DNA of 39,322 nucleotides from an uncultured Rickettsiales bacterium (GTDB taxonomy: Bacteria; Pseudomonadota; Alphaproteobacteria; Rickettsiales; UBA1997): contig CAJQHK010000031.1 in the NCBI GenBank assembly GCA_905478165.1, positions 1 through 39,322 on the forward strand, written 5' to 3'. The position numbers and the translations under genes are program-made. Every line of letters begins with the position of its first letter. Positions within the stretch are counted from its first letter, which is position 1. The notes below the pieces were generated by a model. That model was given only the letters and a program-made list of their open reading frames with translations. It did no database searches and was not told where the DNA came from. This document shows, one piece after another, positions 4,728 through 37,019 of this stretch.

Positions 4728-4790
4728 GTACCAATTCCCACCTTTAAAGCAGTTTTTTTTGAAATATTTTTATTCATAAATTATTAAAAA
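4728..4790. repeat. Family-2 palindromic element, one arm
   Basis: taccaattcccacctttaaagcagttttttttgaaatatttttattcataaattattaaaaa; matches the arms at 16948-17007 (reverse complement), 11805-11850 and 36848-36910. Confidence 0.75.
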
Positions 4791-5149
4791 TACTTTGTGG
4801 AGAATGATAAAATATCATATCAATTTTGGAATTAAAGCTCTAAAGAGACAGCGGTAACAACATTTTATCAGGCACGAATCCACAACTTCCAATAAAAATA
4901 TTATTGTAAATTTATCAATATCAGAGTTATTGTCGCAAACAAGACGATGCTCATCTTGAGAAAAATAGTAAAAGCGTCCAAAAATTTTATTTGTTTTTTA
5001 GATAAGAATTATTTAGATACATCTTCACCAGTAACAAAGCCCGTAACAAGTATGTTACATAGGTTTATTGTCCAGATTTTTCTCATAAAAATAGCAATCA
5101 GTAACTGCTGCAATTTCAGAAGTAGTAATAAGTATAAAGTTTTTTATTT

Positions 5150-9102: not shown

Positions 9103-9834
9103 ATGACAAAAAAAGCGTTAACAGTAGAACATGTATATAAATCATTTGGCGCGAGAGAAACGCTAAATGACATATCTCTATCTGTTGATGCTAATGAAAT
9201 ATTGGGGTTCATAGGTCTCAACGGAGCTGGAAAAACTACCTTGATAAAAATTATTATCGATTTACTAGATTCTGATTCTGGTCAAGTCAAGATTTTTAAT
9301 CAAGACCATAAATCACCAAATTCCAGACGCAATATTTGCTACTTACCAGAAAAATTTCAACCATCGAACTATTTAACTGGTATTGATTTTATAAAATTAA
9401 ATCTTGGACTACATGGTGCTGATTTTAACCTAAAGGAAGCTGAAATATTGTCAGAAAAACTAGATCTAGATCCAAAATTTTTACCAGAAAAGATTTCGAA
9501 ATATTCGAAGGGGATGACTCAAAAAATTGGACTTATCGCTAGCTTCTTGACCAAAAATAAATTAATTATACTAGATGAGCCTATGAGCGGTCTTGACCCA
9601 AAAGCAAGAATCGTTCTAAAAAATCAATTGTTAGACTACAAAACTCAAGGTAAATCTATATTTTTTAGCTCTCATATATTATCTGATATTGATGAAATTT
9701 GCGATAAAATTGTAATTCTACATGATGGTAAAATTATTTTTACTGGAAATAGCAATATTTTAAAAAAAGAATACAACACTGATAATTTAGAGAAAGCATT
9801 TATTAAATCGATATCTATTAATACCCACCCATAA
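9103..9834 (+). CDS. ABC transporter ATP-binding protein (ABC-2 type)
   Basis: Walker A GLNGAGKTT, signature SKGMTQKIGL (variant), Walker B LIILDEPMSGLDP. Confidence 0.93.
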   Translation: MTKKALTVEHVYKSFGARETLNDISLSVDANEILGFIGLNGAGKTTLIKIIIDLLDSDSGQVKIFNQDHKSPNSRRNICYLPEKFQPSNYLTGIDFIKLNLGLHGADFNLKEAEILSEKLDLDPKFLPEKISKYSKGMTQKIGLIASFLTKNKLIILDEPMSGLDPKARIVLKNQLLDYKTQGKSIFFSSHILSDIDEICDKIVILHDGKIIFTGNSNILKKEYNTDNLEKAFIKSISINTHP

Positions 9835-9968
9835 TGTAGCACTTAGGTAAATTAACTTAGGTCAAAAATTTATTATTAAATCTATACTTAATATCATAAT
9901 ATAATTTATCTGAATTTTAGCCACAAATAAAAAAGCATAGATGTTGTATTACAGATGAACTTCGGTAT
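9820..9968. repeat. Family-1 palindromic element copy C
   Basis: aatacccacccataatgtagcacttaggtaaatt...aaaaaagcatagatgttgtattacagatgaacttcggtatt; interior aligns with copy B (27034-27200) and the reverse complement of copy A (23929-24093). Confidence 0.85.
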
Positions 9969-9971
9969 TGC

Positions 9972-10660: not shown

Positions 10661-11869
10661 TTATAAATTACGGTAGATTTCTATGGTGTCTGATATCATT
10701 TTTTCACTAGAAAAATACTTCTTAACTCTATGCCTAGCTTTAACGCCAATTTCCCTCCTTTTTTCTAAATCTAAAGATAATACATGCAATATTTTTTTCG
10801 ACAGATCGGATGAACTTTGATGGTCGCACAAAAACCCAGTCTCAAGATCTACGATAGTCTCCTTTGATCCGCCTAAATTTGTTGCAACAATTATTTTTTC
10901 CATAGCTCCCGCCTCGGTTGCAATCCTGCCAAAAGCCTCTGGTCTTGTGCTTGTAGACAGAACAACGCTAGAAATCATATAAAGTGCAGGCATATCAGAA
11001 ACATGGCTTAAAATTTTAACTTTACCACTCAAACCACTCTCCCCTATTTTCTTTTCCAAGTTATTAATATAACTTTCGTTTGACTTTCCAACCATTAAGC
11101 AAATAAAATCTTCAGATTTAATCATGCTCAACGCATCTAAAAGCAGATCATGACCCTTCCAAGAAGTGAATCTTCCAGGAAGTAAGATAACACTCTTATC
11201 ATCTGTTAATTGTAATTTTTCTATAATTTTTACAATTCTTTCTTTATTAACATTGTCCTTGTTGAAATATTCTACATCAGAACCTCTGTGAATTACCTTT
11301 ACCTTACTTTCTGGAACTAGATATTCCTTAATAATATGGCTTTTTATAAAGTTTGACACAGCAATTATCAAACCCGACCTAACCATTATGGAGTTGTATT
11401 TTCTTTTTAAGAAAGAGTTGCTAGACAAAAAACCCTTAAAGGAATAAGAGCCATGAAAAGTAGTAACAAACTTGCAACTTGCCTTTTTACAAGCAAAATA
11501 GGTACTCCAGGCTGGAGCTCTGGATCTAGCGTGACAAATATCAATATTATATTTTTTAATAATCTTAACTATGCTAAAAATATTAAGAATAATACGAATA
11601 GGATTCTTACTATGAACCGGTAAATATATATGACGAATTTTATGACGCTGAAATTGCCTCAACATTGATCCCCCTGCCGAAATCACTATGATGTCTAAAT
11701 TATCACAGGATAAAGAAAATTTCGACAAATCAAGTACACCCCTCTCAACTCCACCATTTTCAATGGTTGGTAAAATTTGAGCAACAGTAATTTTTTTATT
11801 AACACCCTTTCCCATCTTTAAAGCAGTTTTTTTCAAAATATTTTTATTAACATCCGTTTTAACCCTCAT
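10661..11869 (-). CDS. Glycosyltransferase family 4-like (LPS-type)
   Basis: VAQILPTIENGGVERGVLDLS...LPGRFTSWKGHDLLLDAL...STRPEAFGRIATEAGAMEKIIVATNLGG. Confidence 0.92.
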   Translation of the reverse strand: MRVKTDVNKNILKKTALKMGKGVNKKITVAQILPTIENGGVERGVLDLSKFSLSCDNLDIIVISAGGSMLRQFQRHKIRHIYLPVHSKNPIRIILNIFSIVKIIKKYNIDICHARSRAPAWSTYFACKKASCKFVTTFHGSYSFKGFLSSNSFLKRKYNSIMVRSGLIIAVSNFIKSHIIKEYLVPESKVKVIHRGSDVEYFNKDNVNKERIVKIIEKLQLTDDKSVILLPGRFTSWKGHDLLLDALSMIKSEDFICLMVGKSNESYINNLEKKIGESGLSGKVKILSHVSDMPALYMISSVVLSTSTRPEAFGRIATEAGAMEKIIVATNLGGSKETIVDLETGFLCDHQSSSDLSKKILHVLSLDLEKRREIGVKARHRVKKYFSSEKMISDTIEIYRNL

Positions 11870-11895
11870 ATTTTAAAGGTAAAACAGTGGAAAAT
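11805..11895. repeat. Family-2 palindromic element copy L, inside the 5' end of the glycosyltransferase CDS
   Basis: accctttcccatctttaaagcagtttttttcaaaatatttttatt...catattttaaaggtaaaacagtgg; both arms match copy G (36848-37019) with the interior deleted. Confidence 0.75.
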
Positions 11896-11901
11896 GTTAC
11901 A

Positions 11902-11995
11902 ATACCAATGTTTATCTATAATGTAATATTTACGCTTCTTATTTTTGACCCAAACTATTTTACCTAAATGCCACACTGTAGATGAGCTTTGTCAT
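11902..11995. repeat. Family-1 palindromic element copy D (internal deletion)
   Basis: ataccaatgtttatctataatgtaatatttacgcttcttatttttgacccaaactattttacctaaatgccacactgtagatgagctttgtcat; both ends match copy A, about 70 bp of the centre missing. Confidence 0.8.
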
Positions 11996-12006
11996 GGTAG
12001 CATTTA

Positions 12007-13293
12007 TTATTTTATCACTTCTGGATTAACTACAATAGTCTCGCTCCTATCTGGGCCAGTAGAGATAATATCAATATTTATACCACAAATTTCTTCAATT
12101 TTTCGAATATATTTTATTGCATTTTCTGGCAAATCTTCAATCTTCTTAATATTTCTAATTGAAGATTTCCAGCCGGCAACTTCTTCATAAATTGGCTTAA
12201 CTATATTTTGTAAATCAATTCTATTTGGTAGATAATCGTATATTTTGCCATCAATGTCATAAGAAGTGCAAATTTTAATTTTATCCATTTTATCTAAAAC
12301 ATCTAACTTTGTTAAGACGACAGATTTTATGCTTGATAAGGTTATTGCTTTTTTAACAAGAGCCGCATCAAACCAACCGCATCTCCTATCTCGACCTGTA
12401 ACAGTTCCAATTTCGGCACCCTCTAACTTCAAAAAATTACCTACCTCATCATTTAATTCGGTTGGAAAAGGTCCAGAACCAACGCGAGTTGTATAAGCCT
12501 TCAGAATTCCAATAGTTTTGTCAATAGATGACATAGGAGTACAACCACCAACAAAAGCCGAACTACTAAGAGTGTGTGAAGAAGTGACAAAAGGATAAGT
12601 TCCGTTGGTAACATCTAAAAGAGCTCCCTGAGCTCCCTCAAACATAACATTTTTTTTAGAGCTTAATTTTCTAGTAATATCAAAAGAATCCTTAGAATAA
12701 GATATAATTTCATCTTTAATGTCTAAAATCTCCTTCAATATTAAATTAAAACTAACTTTATCCAGACCCAAACCAGCCCTCAAGATATTATGAAAATAAA
12801 GGATATTTTTTAACCTTTCAGAGAGTATGTCCTCATTCATTAAGTCGCAAATTCTTATAGACCTTCTTCCAACTATATCCTCATAAGCAGGACCTATGCC
12901 TCTACCCGTAGTTCCAATTTTCTTCTCTCCCTTGTTACTTTCCAACAACGCATCCAAATCCTTATGAAAAGAAAAAATCAAAGAACAATTGTCGGCGATA
13001 TTTAGGTTATTTGGAGTAATATTTATACCAGCTTTTTGTAAGGTTTTAATTTCTTTTAGTAAAGTAAAAGGATCAACCACGACTCCGGAACCAATAACAG
13101 AATATTTGTTCTGAATTAATCCAGAAGGTAAGATGCTCAATTTATAAGTTTTACCTTTGCTTTTAATAGTATGTCCAGCGTTATGACCACCCTGAAATCT
13201 AACTACGGCATCAAAAGAGTTGGATAAAAAATCTACCAACTTTCCTTTACCCTCATCTCCCCACTGAAGACCCATAATAACAATATTGCTCAT
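12007..13293 (-). CDS. purA: Adenylosuccinate synthetase
   Basis: MSNIVIMGLQWGDEGKGKLVDFLS...GTTGRGIGPAYEDIVGRRSIRICDL. Confidence 0.98.
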   Translation of the reverse strand: MSNIVIMGLQWGDEGKGKLVDFLSNSFDAVVRFQGGHNAGHTIKSKGKTYKLSILPSGLIQNKYSVIGSGVVVDPFTLLKEIKTLQKAGINITPNNLNIADNCSLIFSFHKDLDALLESNKGEKKIGTTGRGIGPAYEDIVGRRSIRICDLMNEDILSERLKNILYFHNILRAGLGLDKVSFNLILKEILDIKDEIISYSKDSFDITRKLSSKKNVMFEGAQGALLDVTNGTYPFVTSSHTLSSSAFVGGCTPMSSIDKTIGILKAYTTRVGSGPFPTELNDEVGNFLKLEGAEIGTVTGRDRRCGWFDAALVKKAITLSSIKSVVLTKLDVLDKMDKIKICTSYDIDGKIYDYLPNRIDLQNIVKPIYEEVAGWKSSIRNIKKIEDLPENAIKYIRKIEEICGINIDIISTGPDRSETIVVNPEVIK

Positions 13294-16905: not shown

Positions 16906-16947
16906 TTATGCCAATTATCAATCTATTAACAGAGGATCGGCATTATT

Positions 16948-17007
16948 TAATAATTCATGAATAAAAATATTTTAAAAAACTACTTTAAAGATGGGAATTG
17001 GTATTAG
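16948..17007. repeat. Family-2 palindromic arm (copy J) overlapping the aas-like start codon
   Basis: ttaataattcatgaataaaaatattttaaaaaactactttaaagatgggaattggtatt = near reverse complement of 4728-4790. Confidence 0.8.
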
Positions 17008-19108
17008 GCAATTATTTAAATTATTTTTTAAAGTTAAGATTAACGACCTAAATCCTTACATAAACTCTAAAAAAGGTACCATTTTCATCTCTAATCTTAC
17101 CTCCTATTTAGATATCTTTATCTACGCCACTTTCTTACCTAAAAAACTAATAATAATCCTAACTAAGCCCAAGGAATCAAACTTATTACTAAATTTTCTT
17201 TTTAAAATATTCAATATTTATCTGATAGAAAGCGGAAGATCTTCAGATATAATTAAACTAGTAAAGAAAATAAAAAATGGCAAAAAATGCTTGATTTTTC
17301 CTGAGTCAAAACCGAACTATAAAGGTTCTATCGCAAAAATTTATGAAGATAGTCTAATAATAGCACAAAAAACTGATTCAGAAATTATTTCAATAAATAT
17401 AAGTAATTCACAGAACTCAATTTTTTCTAAGAAACTTCCATATTTAAGAAAAAAAATATTTACTAAAATTAATATTCATTTCTCAAAAACAATGAAAGTT
17501 CAATTAAATAAAAATTTAAACCGAAGAGACAAAAGAAGATTTGCCAAAAAACAGCTTTTTAAAATAATGTCAGAAAACTATTATGACGCAATTCAAAAAG
17601 ATAAAACTCTATTTTCTAAACTACTTGAAACCAAAAATAATATAAAAAATAAAGTAATAATTACCGACTTCAATCAAACAGATATCACTTACAATAAGCT
17701 AATTATTGGATCAATTATTTTGGGAAAAAAGATATCCAAACAGACGAAGGAAGAAAAAAAAATTGGCTTATTATTACCAAATATTTCGGCTGCAATGGTT
17801 ACTTTTTTTGCCTTACAATTAATTGGTAAAATTCCTGCGATTTTAAATTTTTCTAATGGCACCGATAGACTTCTCGGATCAATTCAAAATTCTAGACTAA
17901 AATATATCTATTCTTCAAAATTATTTATTAAAAAAGCTAAATTAGGCAAATTTATTAAACTAGCGGAAGAAAAAAATATTAAAATCATCTATCTAGAAGA
18001 TTTAAAATCTGAAATCTCCACCTTAAATAAAATTACAGCAGTTTTTAAATCAAATTTTATTACAAAATATCTAAAAAAAATTAACAAAACTACGGCAGAT
18101 GATATTGCTATAATTTTATTTACTTCAGGATCAGAAGGTAATCCCAAAGCTGTTGCACTGACTCATAGAAATATTAACAGCAATATTGCTCAACTTAAAT
18201 CTATTATTGATTTTAACCCATCTGACAAAGCTTTTAATGCTATGCCAATTTTTCATTCTTTTGGCCTGGTTATTGGATCTATTTTGCCAATTTTTTCTGG
18301 CATTAAAACTTATCTTTACCCTTCCCCCATTCATTACAATAAAATACCAAACTTAGTATATAATTTTTCTGCGACAATTACTTTTGGCACTAATTATTTC
18401 TTAAAAAAATATAGTGAATTTGCTGACAATCTAGACTTCTCTTCGGTTAGGTACATTTTTGCTGGTGCAGAAAAAATTACTTCCGATACTAAAAATATTT
18501 ATTTTGAAAAATTTGGTGTCAGAATATTAGAAGGATATGGCGCAACCGAAACCTCGCCAGTTGTTTGTTTAAACACTCCAAGGTCAAATAAATTTAACAC
18601 AATTGGACAAATTTTACCAAGAATAACTTACAAGATAGAAAAAATAAAAAATATTTCTGAAGGAGGATCTTTGTTAGTAAAGGCAGATAATGTCATGAAA
18701 GGCTATTTAGATTTAAAAAATCCTGAGAGAGTTAAAGAGAGAGAGGAATATTATAATATGGGTGACGTAGTTCGTATTGATGAAGATGGTCACCTTATAA
18801 TTACCGGCAGAATAAAAAGATTTATTAAGATTGCTGGTGAAATGGTTTCGTTAAATCTAATCGAATCCTATATTAGAAAAATTTCCCCAAACAACAATCA
18901 CGCCGTAATTTCTTTTATTGATAGCAGTTCTAAAGAAAATATGTCTTTATTTACTGATGATAAGAGTCTAAATTTAGAAAAAATTATAAAAATCTTTAAA
19001 GAAAAAAACATTGGAACGATTTTTATACCAAGGAACATTGAATATGAAAAAAACATCCCTATTTTAAATACAGGGAAGATTGATTACAATAAATTAGAAA
19101 ACAAATAA
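16991..19108 (+). CDS. aas: Acyl-ACP synthetase / 2-acylglycerophosphoethanolamine acyltransferase-like fusion (Aas)
   Basis: PlsC-like acyltransferase N-domain (IFPESKPNYKGSIAKIYEDSLIIAQKT) plus AMP-binding domain (ILFTSGSEGNPKAVALTHRNI, LEGYGATETSPVVCLN, GDVVRIDEDGHLIITGRIKRFIKIAGEMV). Confidence 0.9.
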   Translation: MGIGIRQLFKLFFKVKINDLNPYINSKKGTIFISNLTSYLDIFIYATFLPKKLIIILTKPKESNLLLNFLFKIFNIYLIESGRSSDIIKLVKKIKNGKKCLIFPESKPNYKGSIAKIYEDSLIIAQKTDSEIISINISNSQNSIFSKKLPYLRKKIFTKINIHFSKTMKVQLNKNLNRRDKRRFAKKQLFKIMSENYYDAIQKDKTLFSKLLETKNNIKNKVIITDFNQTDITYNKLIIGSIILGKKISKQTKEEKKIGLLLPNISAAMVTFFALQLIGKIPAILNFSNGTDRLLGSIQNSRLKYIYSSKLFIKKAKLGKFIKLAEEKNIKIIYLEDLKSEISTLNKITAVFKSNFITKYLKKINKTTADDIAIILFTSGSEGNPKAVALTHRNINSNIAQLKSIIDFNPSDKAFNAMPIFHSFGLVIGSILPIFSGIKTYLYPSPIHYNKIPNLVYNFSATITFGTNYFLKKYSEFADNLDFSSVRYIFAGAEKITSDTKNIYFEKFGVRILEGYGATETSPVVCLNTPRSNKFNTIGQILPRITYKIEKIKNISEGGSLLVKADNVMKGYLDLKNPERVKEREEYYNMGDVVRIDEDGHLIITGRIKRFIKIAGEMVSLNLIESYIRKISPNNNHAVISFIDSSSKENMSLFTDDKSLNLEKIIKIFKEKNIGTIFIPRNIEYEKNIPILNTGKIDYNKLENK

Positions 19109-22123: not shown

Positions 22124-23434
22124 CTAGAATTTAGCTATCACTTCAATAAATTTTTTAATATCCTCCTCCAGAACTGATTTATGATTTTGAATAAAATTAT
22201 CAATATTTTTCTCAATCTCCTTTCTGTATTTTTGATCTTTAAAGATCTTTAAAGCATAAAAATAAAGCTCATCCTCATCTTTACTCATCTGACAAACAGC
22301 GCCCTCTTCTAATTTTTGATAAATCTCATTAAAATTAGAGGTATATCTACCAGAAATAATGATATTCTTGTGCTGCAAGGCCTCGTAAGGATTATGACCG
22401 CCAATATTATCAGAAAAAGAACCGCAAATAATTGATAAATTACTCATATGATAAAATAAATCCATGTAACCAATTTCATCTACAATAAAAACATGATCTT
22501 CCTTTGTCACTCTTTGATTGTCACTTAAAAATTTTACTCCTGATGGTAATAATTTTTTTACTTCTAATTTTCGATGTGGATGACGAATAGCAATGATAGT
22601 TAATAAATTATTAACATCTTTTTTTAATTTATTATGTAAATCAATAATAATACCTTCTTCGCCCTGATGAGTACTAGATGCAAAAAGAATTTGACGATCT
22701 TTAAATTGTCCCTGAAATTTTTCTAATAATTTTGGATCAATTTCTTTTTTTTCCACGTCTTCCTTTAGGTTTCCAAAAGAAAAAACTTCTTTTTCCGACA
22801 ATAACTTAAATTTTTCTTGATCTCCTGAGCTTTGAGCAATAATTAAGTCAAATTTAGAAAATAATTTTTGAGCTGATTGATATTTTTGCCATTTTTTAAA
22901 TGATTTGTCAGAAATCCTAGCATTAATAAGAGTTAATTTAGCAGAAAATTTAGCAGAAAAATTAAGTAAATTAAACCAAATTTCAGATTCAAAAAAGATT
23001 ACAATATTTGGTCTCCAATACTTAATAAATCTTCTGGCAGTAAAAAATTTATCCAAAGGAATGAATTGGTGGGTGATATTTTTTGGCAATTTATTAGCCA
23101 AATTTTTGGCAGAAGTAACCGTTCCAGATGTAAATAAAATTTGATAATTAGGATAATTATCCTGTATCTTGGAGATAAATTTAAGAGCAGAGTTTGATTC
23201 TCCAACAGATGCGGCATGAATCCAGATTAATTTTTCTTTTGTTTTTTTAGCGGACGGAAAGCCAAATCTCTCTAAAAAACGAGATTTATGCTCTTTACCC
23301 TTGATTAAGCGAAATAAAAAGTAGATATCAATTATTGGAGATAATATTATCGACAATAATTGATATAAGAGTAACATAATTAGACGAAATATGAAATAAA
23401 CACAAAGATAAAGTAGGCTTAGAAATAATACCAA
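22124..23434 (-). CDS. waaA: 3-deoxy-D-manno-octulosonic acid (Kdo) transferase
   Basis: LIWIHAASVGESNSALKFI...NYQILFTSGTVTSAK...FASSTHQGEEGIII...GGHNPYEALQ. Confidence 0.94.
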   Translation of the reverse strand: MVLFLSLLYLCVYFIFRLIMLLLYQLLSIILSPIIDIYFLFRLIKGKEHKSRFLERFGFPSAKKTKEKLIWIHAASVGESNSALKFISKIQDNYPNYQILFTSGTVTSAKNLANKLPKNITHQFIPLDKFFTARRFIKYWRPNIVIFFESEIWFNLLNFSAKFSAKLTLINARISDKSFKKWQKYQSAQKLFSKFDLIIAQSSGDQEKFKLLSEKEVFSFGNLKEDVEKKEIDPKLLEKFQGQFKDRQILFASSTHQGEEGIIIDLHNKLKKDVNNLLTIIAIRHPHRKLEVKKLLPSGVKFLSDNQRVTKEDHVFIVDEIGYMDLFYHMSNLSIICGSFSDNIGGHNPYEALQHKNIIISGRYTSNFNEIYQKLEEGAVCQMSKDEDELYFYALKIFKDQKYRKEIEKNIDNFIQNHKSVLEEDIKKFIEVIAKF

Positions 23435-23928: not shown

Positions 23929-24093
23929 ATACCAAAGTTAATCTATAATGCAACATTTATGCTTTTTATTTTTGGAAAAAAATTATCACAAAACTTATCT
24001 AAATATATTTCGATATTAAGCATAAATTTAATAATAAATTTTTGACTCAAACTAATTTACCTAAATGTTGCATTATAGATGAACTTTGGCATT
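23929..24093. repeat. Family-1 palindromic element copy A (full length)
   Basis: Ends ataccaaagttaatctataatgcaacattta ... taaatgttgcattatagatgaactttggcat: about 31 bp inverted repeats, 29 matches. Confidence 0.9.
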
Positions 24094-27033: not shown

Positions 27034-27200
27034 CTATAACAAAGTTTATCTACAATAAGACATTTAGGTAAATTAGTTTGGGTCAAAAATTTATTATTAA
27101 ATCTATATTTAATATCGGAATATATTTAGCTAAATTTTATGATAATTTTTGTCTAACAATAAGAAGTATAAATTCTACACTATAGATGAGATTTGGTATT
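27034..27200. repeat. Family-1 palindromic element copy B (full length)
   Basis: tataacaaagtttatctacaataagacatttaggtaaattagtttgggtcaaaaatttattattaaatct...tacactatagatgagatttggtatt; opposite orientation to copy A. Confidence 0.9.
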
Positions 27201-30743: not shown

Positions 30744-30904
30744 CTATACGACAAAAATAGATTAATTATAAATTTAAATCAACATCAAATATTAAAATAA
30801 TCTTAACTAAGAATTATAAATCATAGAGCAAAATTAATACGCCCTTAAAAGAATAATAATTGCTTTCTAAATTAATTGTCCTAAAAACTCTTCATTTATG
30901 TTAA

Positions 30905-31059
30905 TTTTCACCTTTAAAGAAGTTTTTTCTTTATCTTTTACTCCTAAACAATCAAAAACTCTTGCACCCTATGTTAATAGGTTGATGATTTAAGGATAAT
31001 AAGGATGGAGAAAAAATCTGCTCTATAACTTGTATATTTTAAAGGTGGGAATCGGTATT
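30905..31059. repeat. Family-2 palindromic element copy H
   Basis: ttttcacctttaaagaagttttttct...caccctatgttaatagg...tataacttgtatattttaaaggtgggaatcggtatt; arms inverted. Confidence 0.75.
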
Positions 31060-36847: not shown

Positions 36848-37019
36848 TATACCATTTGCTATCTTTAAGGCAGTTTTTTTCAAAATATTTTATTCATAAA
36901 TTGTTAAAAAACGACTATCCTGTGTTAATAAGGAGTAGGACTTTTTAATGATTTAGGAATAAAAAAGATACAGAAAGAAACCACTTTAACTTGCGTATTT
37001 TAAAGGTAGGAGTGGTATA
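36848..37019. repeat. Family-2 palindromic element copy G (full length)
   Basis: ataccatttgctatctttaaggcagtttttttcaaaatattttattcataaattgttaaaaaacgactatcctgtgttaat...ttaacttgcgtattttaaaggtaggagtggtat. Confidence 0.85.

Follow-up and report, generated by a model that had tools for sequence, protein, structure and literature searches.

A MITE-like palindromic repeat appears to supply the start codon of a glycosyltransferase gene, and of other conserved genes, in a Rickettsiales genome

The window, that is, the whole 39,322-nucleotide stretch of DNA analyzed here, belongs to a low-GC genome of 1.2 Mb, a close relative of which is labelled "Rickettsiales bacterium". On the minus strand of the window, the adenylosuccinate synthase gene purA lies upstream of a gene for a GT4-type glycosyltransferase (GT), and the region between their conserved parts holds two different palindromic repeats, namely, a family-1 element and a copy of the family-2 element, referred to as copy L (Table 1). 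The first-pass annotation had reported that the GT ORF opens with MRVKTDVNKNILKKTALKMGKGVNKKITVAQILP ahead of the expected N-terminus, that its initial ATG lies in the right arm of a palindrome and that this palindrome is one copy of a dispersed repeat. All three observations hold: the ORF has this start, the ATG falls in the right (distal) arm of copy L, and a genome search with the copy L stretch recovered 43 dispersed places, with E values down to 5e-13 excluding self.

Table 1. Coordinates of the genes, repeats and candidate start codons within the window.
Feature	Position	Strand	Evidence
Family-2 copy consisting of one arm plus terminal repeat	4729..4790	+	repeat search
GT4-type glycosyltransferase, N-terminus predicted to be element-encoded	10661..11869	-	Pfam PF13439 and PF00534; 76% identical ortholog from residue 24
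Copy L, internally deleted family-2 MITE-like palindrome	11803..11891	-	repeat search, consensus alignment, shuffles
ATG (Met19), third in-frame GT start, terminal inverted repeat (AAAG-ATG-GGA)	11813..11815	-	start census; ortholog-like length
TTG, second in-frame GT start, proximal arm	11834..11836	-	start census, arm alignment
ATG (Met1), first in-frame GT start, distal arm	11867..11869	-	start census, arm alignment
Palindromic element of family 1, a separate repeat, between purA and copy L	11902..11995	.	repeat families D1, D4, D7
purA, adenylosuccinate synthase, upstream neighbour of GT	12007..13293	-	domain search and synteny
Family-2 copy J, with the predicted start of the next gene at its terminal-repeat ATG (16991)	16924..17003	+	repeat search, start census
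aas-like acyltransferase/acyl-ACP ligase, predicted MGIGI start from copy J	16991..19108	+	start census, domain search, synteny
Family-2 copy, near full length	30903..31058	+	repeat search
Family-2 copy, full length	36849..37018	+	repeat search

Aligned copies define the family-2 element as an imperfect palindrome of ~169 bp with the ends TACCAATTCCC...GGGAATTGGTA, terminal inverted repeats that are present in the full-length copies. A genome query with a better copy than copy L recovered 50 places, and ~44 distinct places were retained from the loci fetched around the copies. Identical 3-bp TAA/TTA flanks border 7 of the 11 full-length copies in this genome (mean of 3.6 when left and right flanks were shuffled, p 0.009) and 18 of the 27 full-length copies in G010, a genome from another genus within the same bacterial family that carries many related copies (shuffled mean 9.9; 0 of 5000 shuffles as high). 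The element leaves no room for a transposase gene. Its short length, terminal repeats, many copies, lack of a transposase and target site duplication together make the family MITE-like. An Rfam search of the window matched nothing except tRNA and SRP RNA, and plasmid records gave no match to the family-2 consensus.

Read outward, the consensus arm encodes MNKNISKKTALKVGIG and is open to its end, and the opposite end of the element, reading ..LYILKMGIG, is likewise open. The peptide NKNILKKTALK found in the GT ORF therefore belongs to the conserved frame of the arm itself. To this extent, the earlier proposal that copy L shares its frame with copy J stands; it does not extend to the continuation of that frame in copy J, where one A fewer in the A-run causes the MNKNILKNYFKDGNWY ORF to close rather than run on. 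Even old copies keep the coding (GCAG) arm at ~95% similarity to the consensus, compared with ~77-80% for the rest of their sequence. The idea that this arm is better conserved solely in copies fused to genes was rejected, as most copies show the pattern, fused or not. Since unfused copies share it, the conservation does not demonstrate that the peptide is under selection; a transposition signal, gene conversion and selection are candidate causes.

Copy L retains ~89 of the 169 bp, about the first 47 and the last 40 positions, and the bounds first proposed for it have been refined to those of an old, internally deleted copy. Of the 49 bases of its proximal arm (11851-11803 on the minus strand), 42 agree with the consensus, against a mean of 24.6 and a maximum of 31 in 1000 dinucleotide shuffles; in the distal arm (11877-11852), 20 of 26 bases agree, with at most 19 in the shuffles. 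Together with the copies found genome-wide, this rules out chance resemblance. The distal end is badly decayed. TAA at 11800-11802 adjoins the copy, and the other flank has decayed, such that the duplication is partial (TAA vs AAA). In copy L, the ATG that is conserved among arms (ATGAAT) has shifted out of frame (ATGTTAAT), so that the called ORF start is a different ATG, located in the distal arm.

An element-free counterpart of the locus is found in G002, a genome of the same genus (its locus sequence is identical to that of L031, "Rickettsiales bacterium isolate C-137"), with 82% identity to purA and 76% to the GT. There, the two genes are 4 nt apart and no element is present: the TAA of purA is followed by TTTA and then by ATG AGT ATA TCA GAT AAA AAG ATA ACT (MSISDKKITIAQILPSIESGGVERG), with MSISDKKITIAQ as the native GT start. 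The distance from purA to the conserved GT sequence is ~190 bp longer in the window, the excess being filled by the family-1 repeat and copy L. The junction between copy L and the GT reads ..GGGAAAGGGTG, TTA, ATAAAAAAATTACT, which places the insertion a few codons inside a G002-type gene, not upstream of it. The comparison with orthologs suggested in the first-pass annotation does not refute an element-derived N-terminus, in that the NKNILKKTALK-type peptide is absent from the syntenic G002 gene and orthologs mostly begin at about residue 24 (aligning from about residue 24-28, with a few weaker matches extending further upstream). At the genome level, G002 gave no match at E<=0.001 to the family-2 copy at 4730-4830, and only two fragments of ~24-31 nt to the full family-2 consensus. 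As only 1 of the 2 same-genus relatives retains the GT, the other genome being 63% complete, the evidence for the empty site comes from a single genome together with more distant orthologs.

We compared the possible initiation codons of the affected genes by counting in-frame ATG, GTG and TTG codons before the conserved region; near-cognate ATT and ATA codons further downstream are conceivable additional starts. Upstream of KITVAQ in the GT, there are 3 such codons, ATG (codon -25), TTG (-14) and ATG (-7), and all 3 lie inside copy L. Whichever of them is used, the GT start codon would consist of element DNA, a conclusion supported by the sequence and, given the element-free G002 gene, in agreement with the original claim.

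For three further genes, gltX (TIGR00464), ispE (TIGR00154) and the aas-like gene (a PRK06814-type acyltransferase/ligase match, below the model cut-off), the only ATG, GTG or TTG codons are element-encoded, at sites that are empty in G002, whereas yidD (TIGR00278) is ambiguous. The gltX gene (L028) reads MNKNISKKTALKTKIGTICRFAPSPTG, compared with MTVICRFAPSPTG in G002, and the element ATG is its sole in-frame ATG, GTG or TTG before RFAPSPTG. In ispE (L116), which reads MNKSILKKTSLKRRSAIIARSFAKINL, the in-frame starts are the element ATG and TTG only, while the gene in G002 and G001 begins MKITAKS[FP]AKINL; the G002 orthologs align from residue 13 of gltX and residue 16 of ispE. The aas-like gene begins MGIGIRQLF.., the terminal-repeat ATG of copy J being the sole ATG, GTG or TTG near its 5' end, and the native start of the G002 type (MKFFLQLFFK) is gone. 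In yidD (L072), the element peptide is present, but a native-like ATG persists beside the element. The element-encoded N-termini are MNKNISKKTALK (gltX), MNKSILKKTSLK (ispE) and MNKNILKKITLK (yidD), such that the predicted peptide NK[NS]I[LS]KK recurs in the unrelated GT, GltX, IspE and YidD. All 5 loci (GT, gltX, ispE, yidD and aas) have the same upstream gene in this genome and in G002, and the gap from that gene to the conserved coding sequence is longer than in G002 by ~190 nt for the GT (two elements) and gltX, ~77 nt for ispE, ~128 nt for yidD and ~87 nt for the aas-like gene. Among the 44 family-2 places, fusions to conserved genes occur at 5' ends only, the GT having been flagged in the "inside" element class merely because its ORF begins in the distal arm. 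Elsewhere in the genome there is a second, more distant gltX-like gene. Within the window, a 436-aa ORF at 22124-23434(-) starts from a TTG beside a weak terminal-repeat-like 20-mer (4 mismatches), which may be due to chance.

None of the candidate GT starts inspected is preceded by a clear Shine-Dalgarno motif, so the sequence cannot pick among them on that basis. The starts of relatives lie mostly 10-17 codons before the ILP motif (12 in G002), and Met19 lies 13 codons before it; given this ortholog-like distance, we rank Met19 first and Met1 second, and initiation at Met19, within the terminal repeat, is most likely. Production of the full 24-residue leader from Met1, which would add MRVKTDVNKNILKKTALKMGKGV as an RPE-like extension, is possible, though we do not consider it probable. 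Met1 gives the longest ORF, the NKNILKKTALK frame is still open in copy L, and gltX and ispE have no ATG, GTG or TTG other than starts of NKNI-type leaders, which suggests that Lys-rich leaders are tolerated; nevertheless, Met1 lies 31 codons before ILP and arises from a variant distal-arm base rather than from the arm's conserved ATG. Hence, of the extension of ~22-24 residues proposed initially, the element-derived initiation is upheld and the full length is less certain, as Met19 would yield a protein of ortholog-like length.

Alternatively, the annotated starts might be artefacts, with translation beginning at a near-cognate codon downstream (e.g., the ATT of KIT) and the element being a neutral upstream insertion. 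The native-like ATG beside the element in yidD indeed indicates that not every in-frame element is needed, but four different conserved genes would each require a rare start other than ATG, GTG or TTG where their syntenic orthologs use ATG, and we find this quite improbable. Least credible is an effect on expression (as a promoter, an RNA hairpin or insulation from purA) with an incidental coding role: the palindromic element does sit in an operon-like gap, and bacterial MITEs may work at the RNA level, as in the RNase III processing of NEMIS transcripts (PMC2229807), but most of the palindrome has been lost from copy L and regulation leaves unexplained why start codons occur only inside the element.

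We therefore consider it very likely that copy L inserted into the early codons of the GT, that the native ATG was lost and that initiation now takes place on element DNA, and that gltX, ispE and the aas-like gene underwent the same kind of event. The element, the empty site, the synteny and the absence of other ATG, GTG or TTG codons are read from the sequence; the order of events, the start used and the production of protein are what we infer, with parsimony giving the ancestral state. Presumably, a degenerate MITE-like palindrome entered a TTA/TAA within the first GT codons, just behind purA, cutting off the native ATG, which would later have been lost. The outward, stop-free frame of the element with its start codons (ATG..NKNI[L/S]KKTALK, then [A/G]TG-GGA-ATT-GGT) would have run in frame into the GT, and it is to this open frame with starts at the element end that the gene would owe its survival, using Met19 or else Met1 with its Lys-rich leader of ~24 residues. 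Since GGTA forms the end of the element, the duplicated TAA/TTA is read within ATA/ATT and the frame stays open, so that an early-codon insertion would be rescued with a chance of roughly 1/3. In genes that the cell needs, only such in-frame rescued insertions would persist, and this persistence filter alone can explain the pattern of start fusions; selection for a portable start codon is possible. That the family is organized so as to survive insertion at gene starts, with a portable start codon selected across at least two genera, seems unlikely to us. The idea stays open in view of the related G010 element, which reads MVKNILNISYLKMDFG in the equivalent arm; among the G010 stretches taken, 75 outward ends were checked and no convincing case of start capture was found.

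The RPEs of Rickettsia appear to be the nearest analogue. These palindromic Rickettsiales repeats of 105-146 bp have terminal inverted repeats and an open frame that continues into conserved genes, often ones with metabolic functions (PMC2229807, PMC10969869). A guanylate kinase that carries an RPE is both translated and active, and the RPE target duplication is listed as "?" (PMC2229807). The family-2 element is likewise a short palindrome with terminal repeats and an open frame fused to conserved genes (translation being predicted), but it is 169 bp long, its TAA/TTA target duplication of 3 bp is clear, and its fusions replace gene starts, where they provide the start codon, whereas RPEs interrupt genes internally. 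Among the 44 places, no full family-2 element is read through inside a gene, and NCBIfam gave no RPE-domain match for the fused stretch, which is short and was compared by protein models rather than with RPE nucleotide sequence. The parallel to in-frame RPE insertion drawn at the outset is thus apt as to the kind of phenomenon, which here takes the form of N-terminal start replacement. Enterobacterial MITEs RU-1/ERIC, RU-2/YPAL and RU-3 also fuse with ORFs, RU-2 at the N-terminus of YP_0349 (Delihas 2007, PMC2759123), and by description resemble family 2 as MITE-like repeats with frames fused to adjoining ORFs, N-terminal cases included; in family 2, by contrast, the fused genes can be paired with syntenic orthologs that lack the element and have native starts, and outside the element no ATG, GTG or TTG start is left. 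The 107-bp Correia/NEMIS element of Neisseria, also a MITE, has open frames that are abundantly joined with other ORFs (PMC2229807); it is likened here by description and differs in its host. Repeated start-codon replacement of this sort is undescribed in the literature searched, which mostly lay outside subscription journals, and we judge the family-2 captures to be a variant within the known MITE/RPE coding fusions.

These loci provide clean before-and-after gene pairs in which a mobile repeat appears to have taken over the initiation of conserved genes, including that for glutamyl-tRNA synthetase (translation being predicted), and they would show that RPE-like invasion of proteins also reaches gene starts and occurs in a further Rickettsiales lineage. 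Selection on elements to carry outward start codons thereby becomes testable; were the portable-start reading true, the family would represent an insertion-tolerant mobile element able to restore in-frame initiation. For gene calling and N-terminal annotation in such genomes, repeats of the family-2 type should be treated as coding.

As for the source of mobility, a 3-bp TAA/TTA duplication beside terminal repeats would fit a transposase of insertion sequences with short T(N)A-type target duplications, e.g., parts of the IS5 family. The duplication is of the same type, but the loci examined (4 PF01609 loci in this genome, those from a PF13359 search and 4 PF01609 loci in relatives) are not framed by family-2 termini at both ends, and none qualified as the parent transposon. 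G001 contains few element fragments. In G010 (loci L219-L251, e.g., L225, L230 and L235), some copies are nested head to tail in the termini of others, and several contigs end close to related elements. Family-1 palindromes occur in the window at 9826-9969, 11902-11995, 23929-24092 and 27040-27199, with ends like TACCAAAGTTNATCTATAATG. Their termini begin with TACCAA, as do those of family 2, and the two families are possibly mobilised by one transposase.
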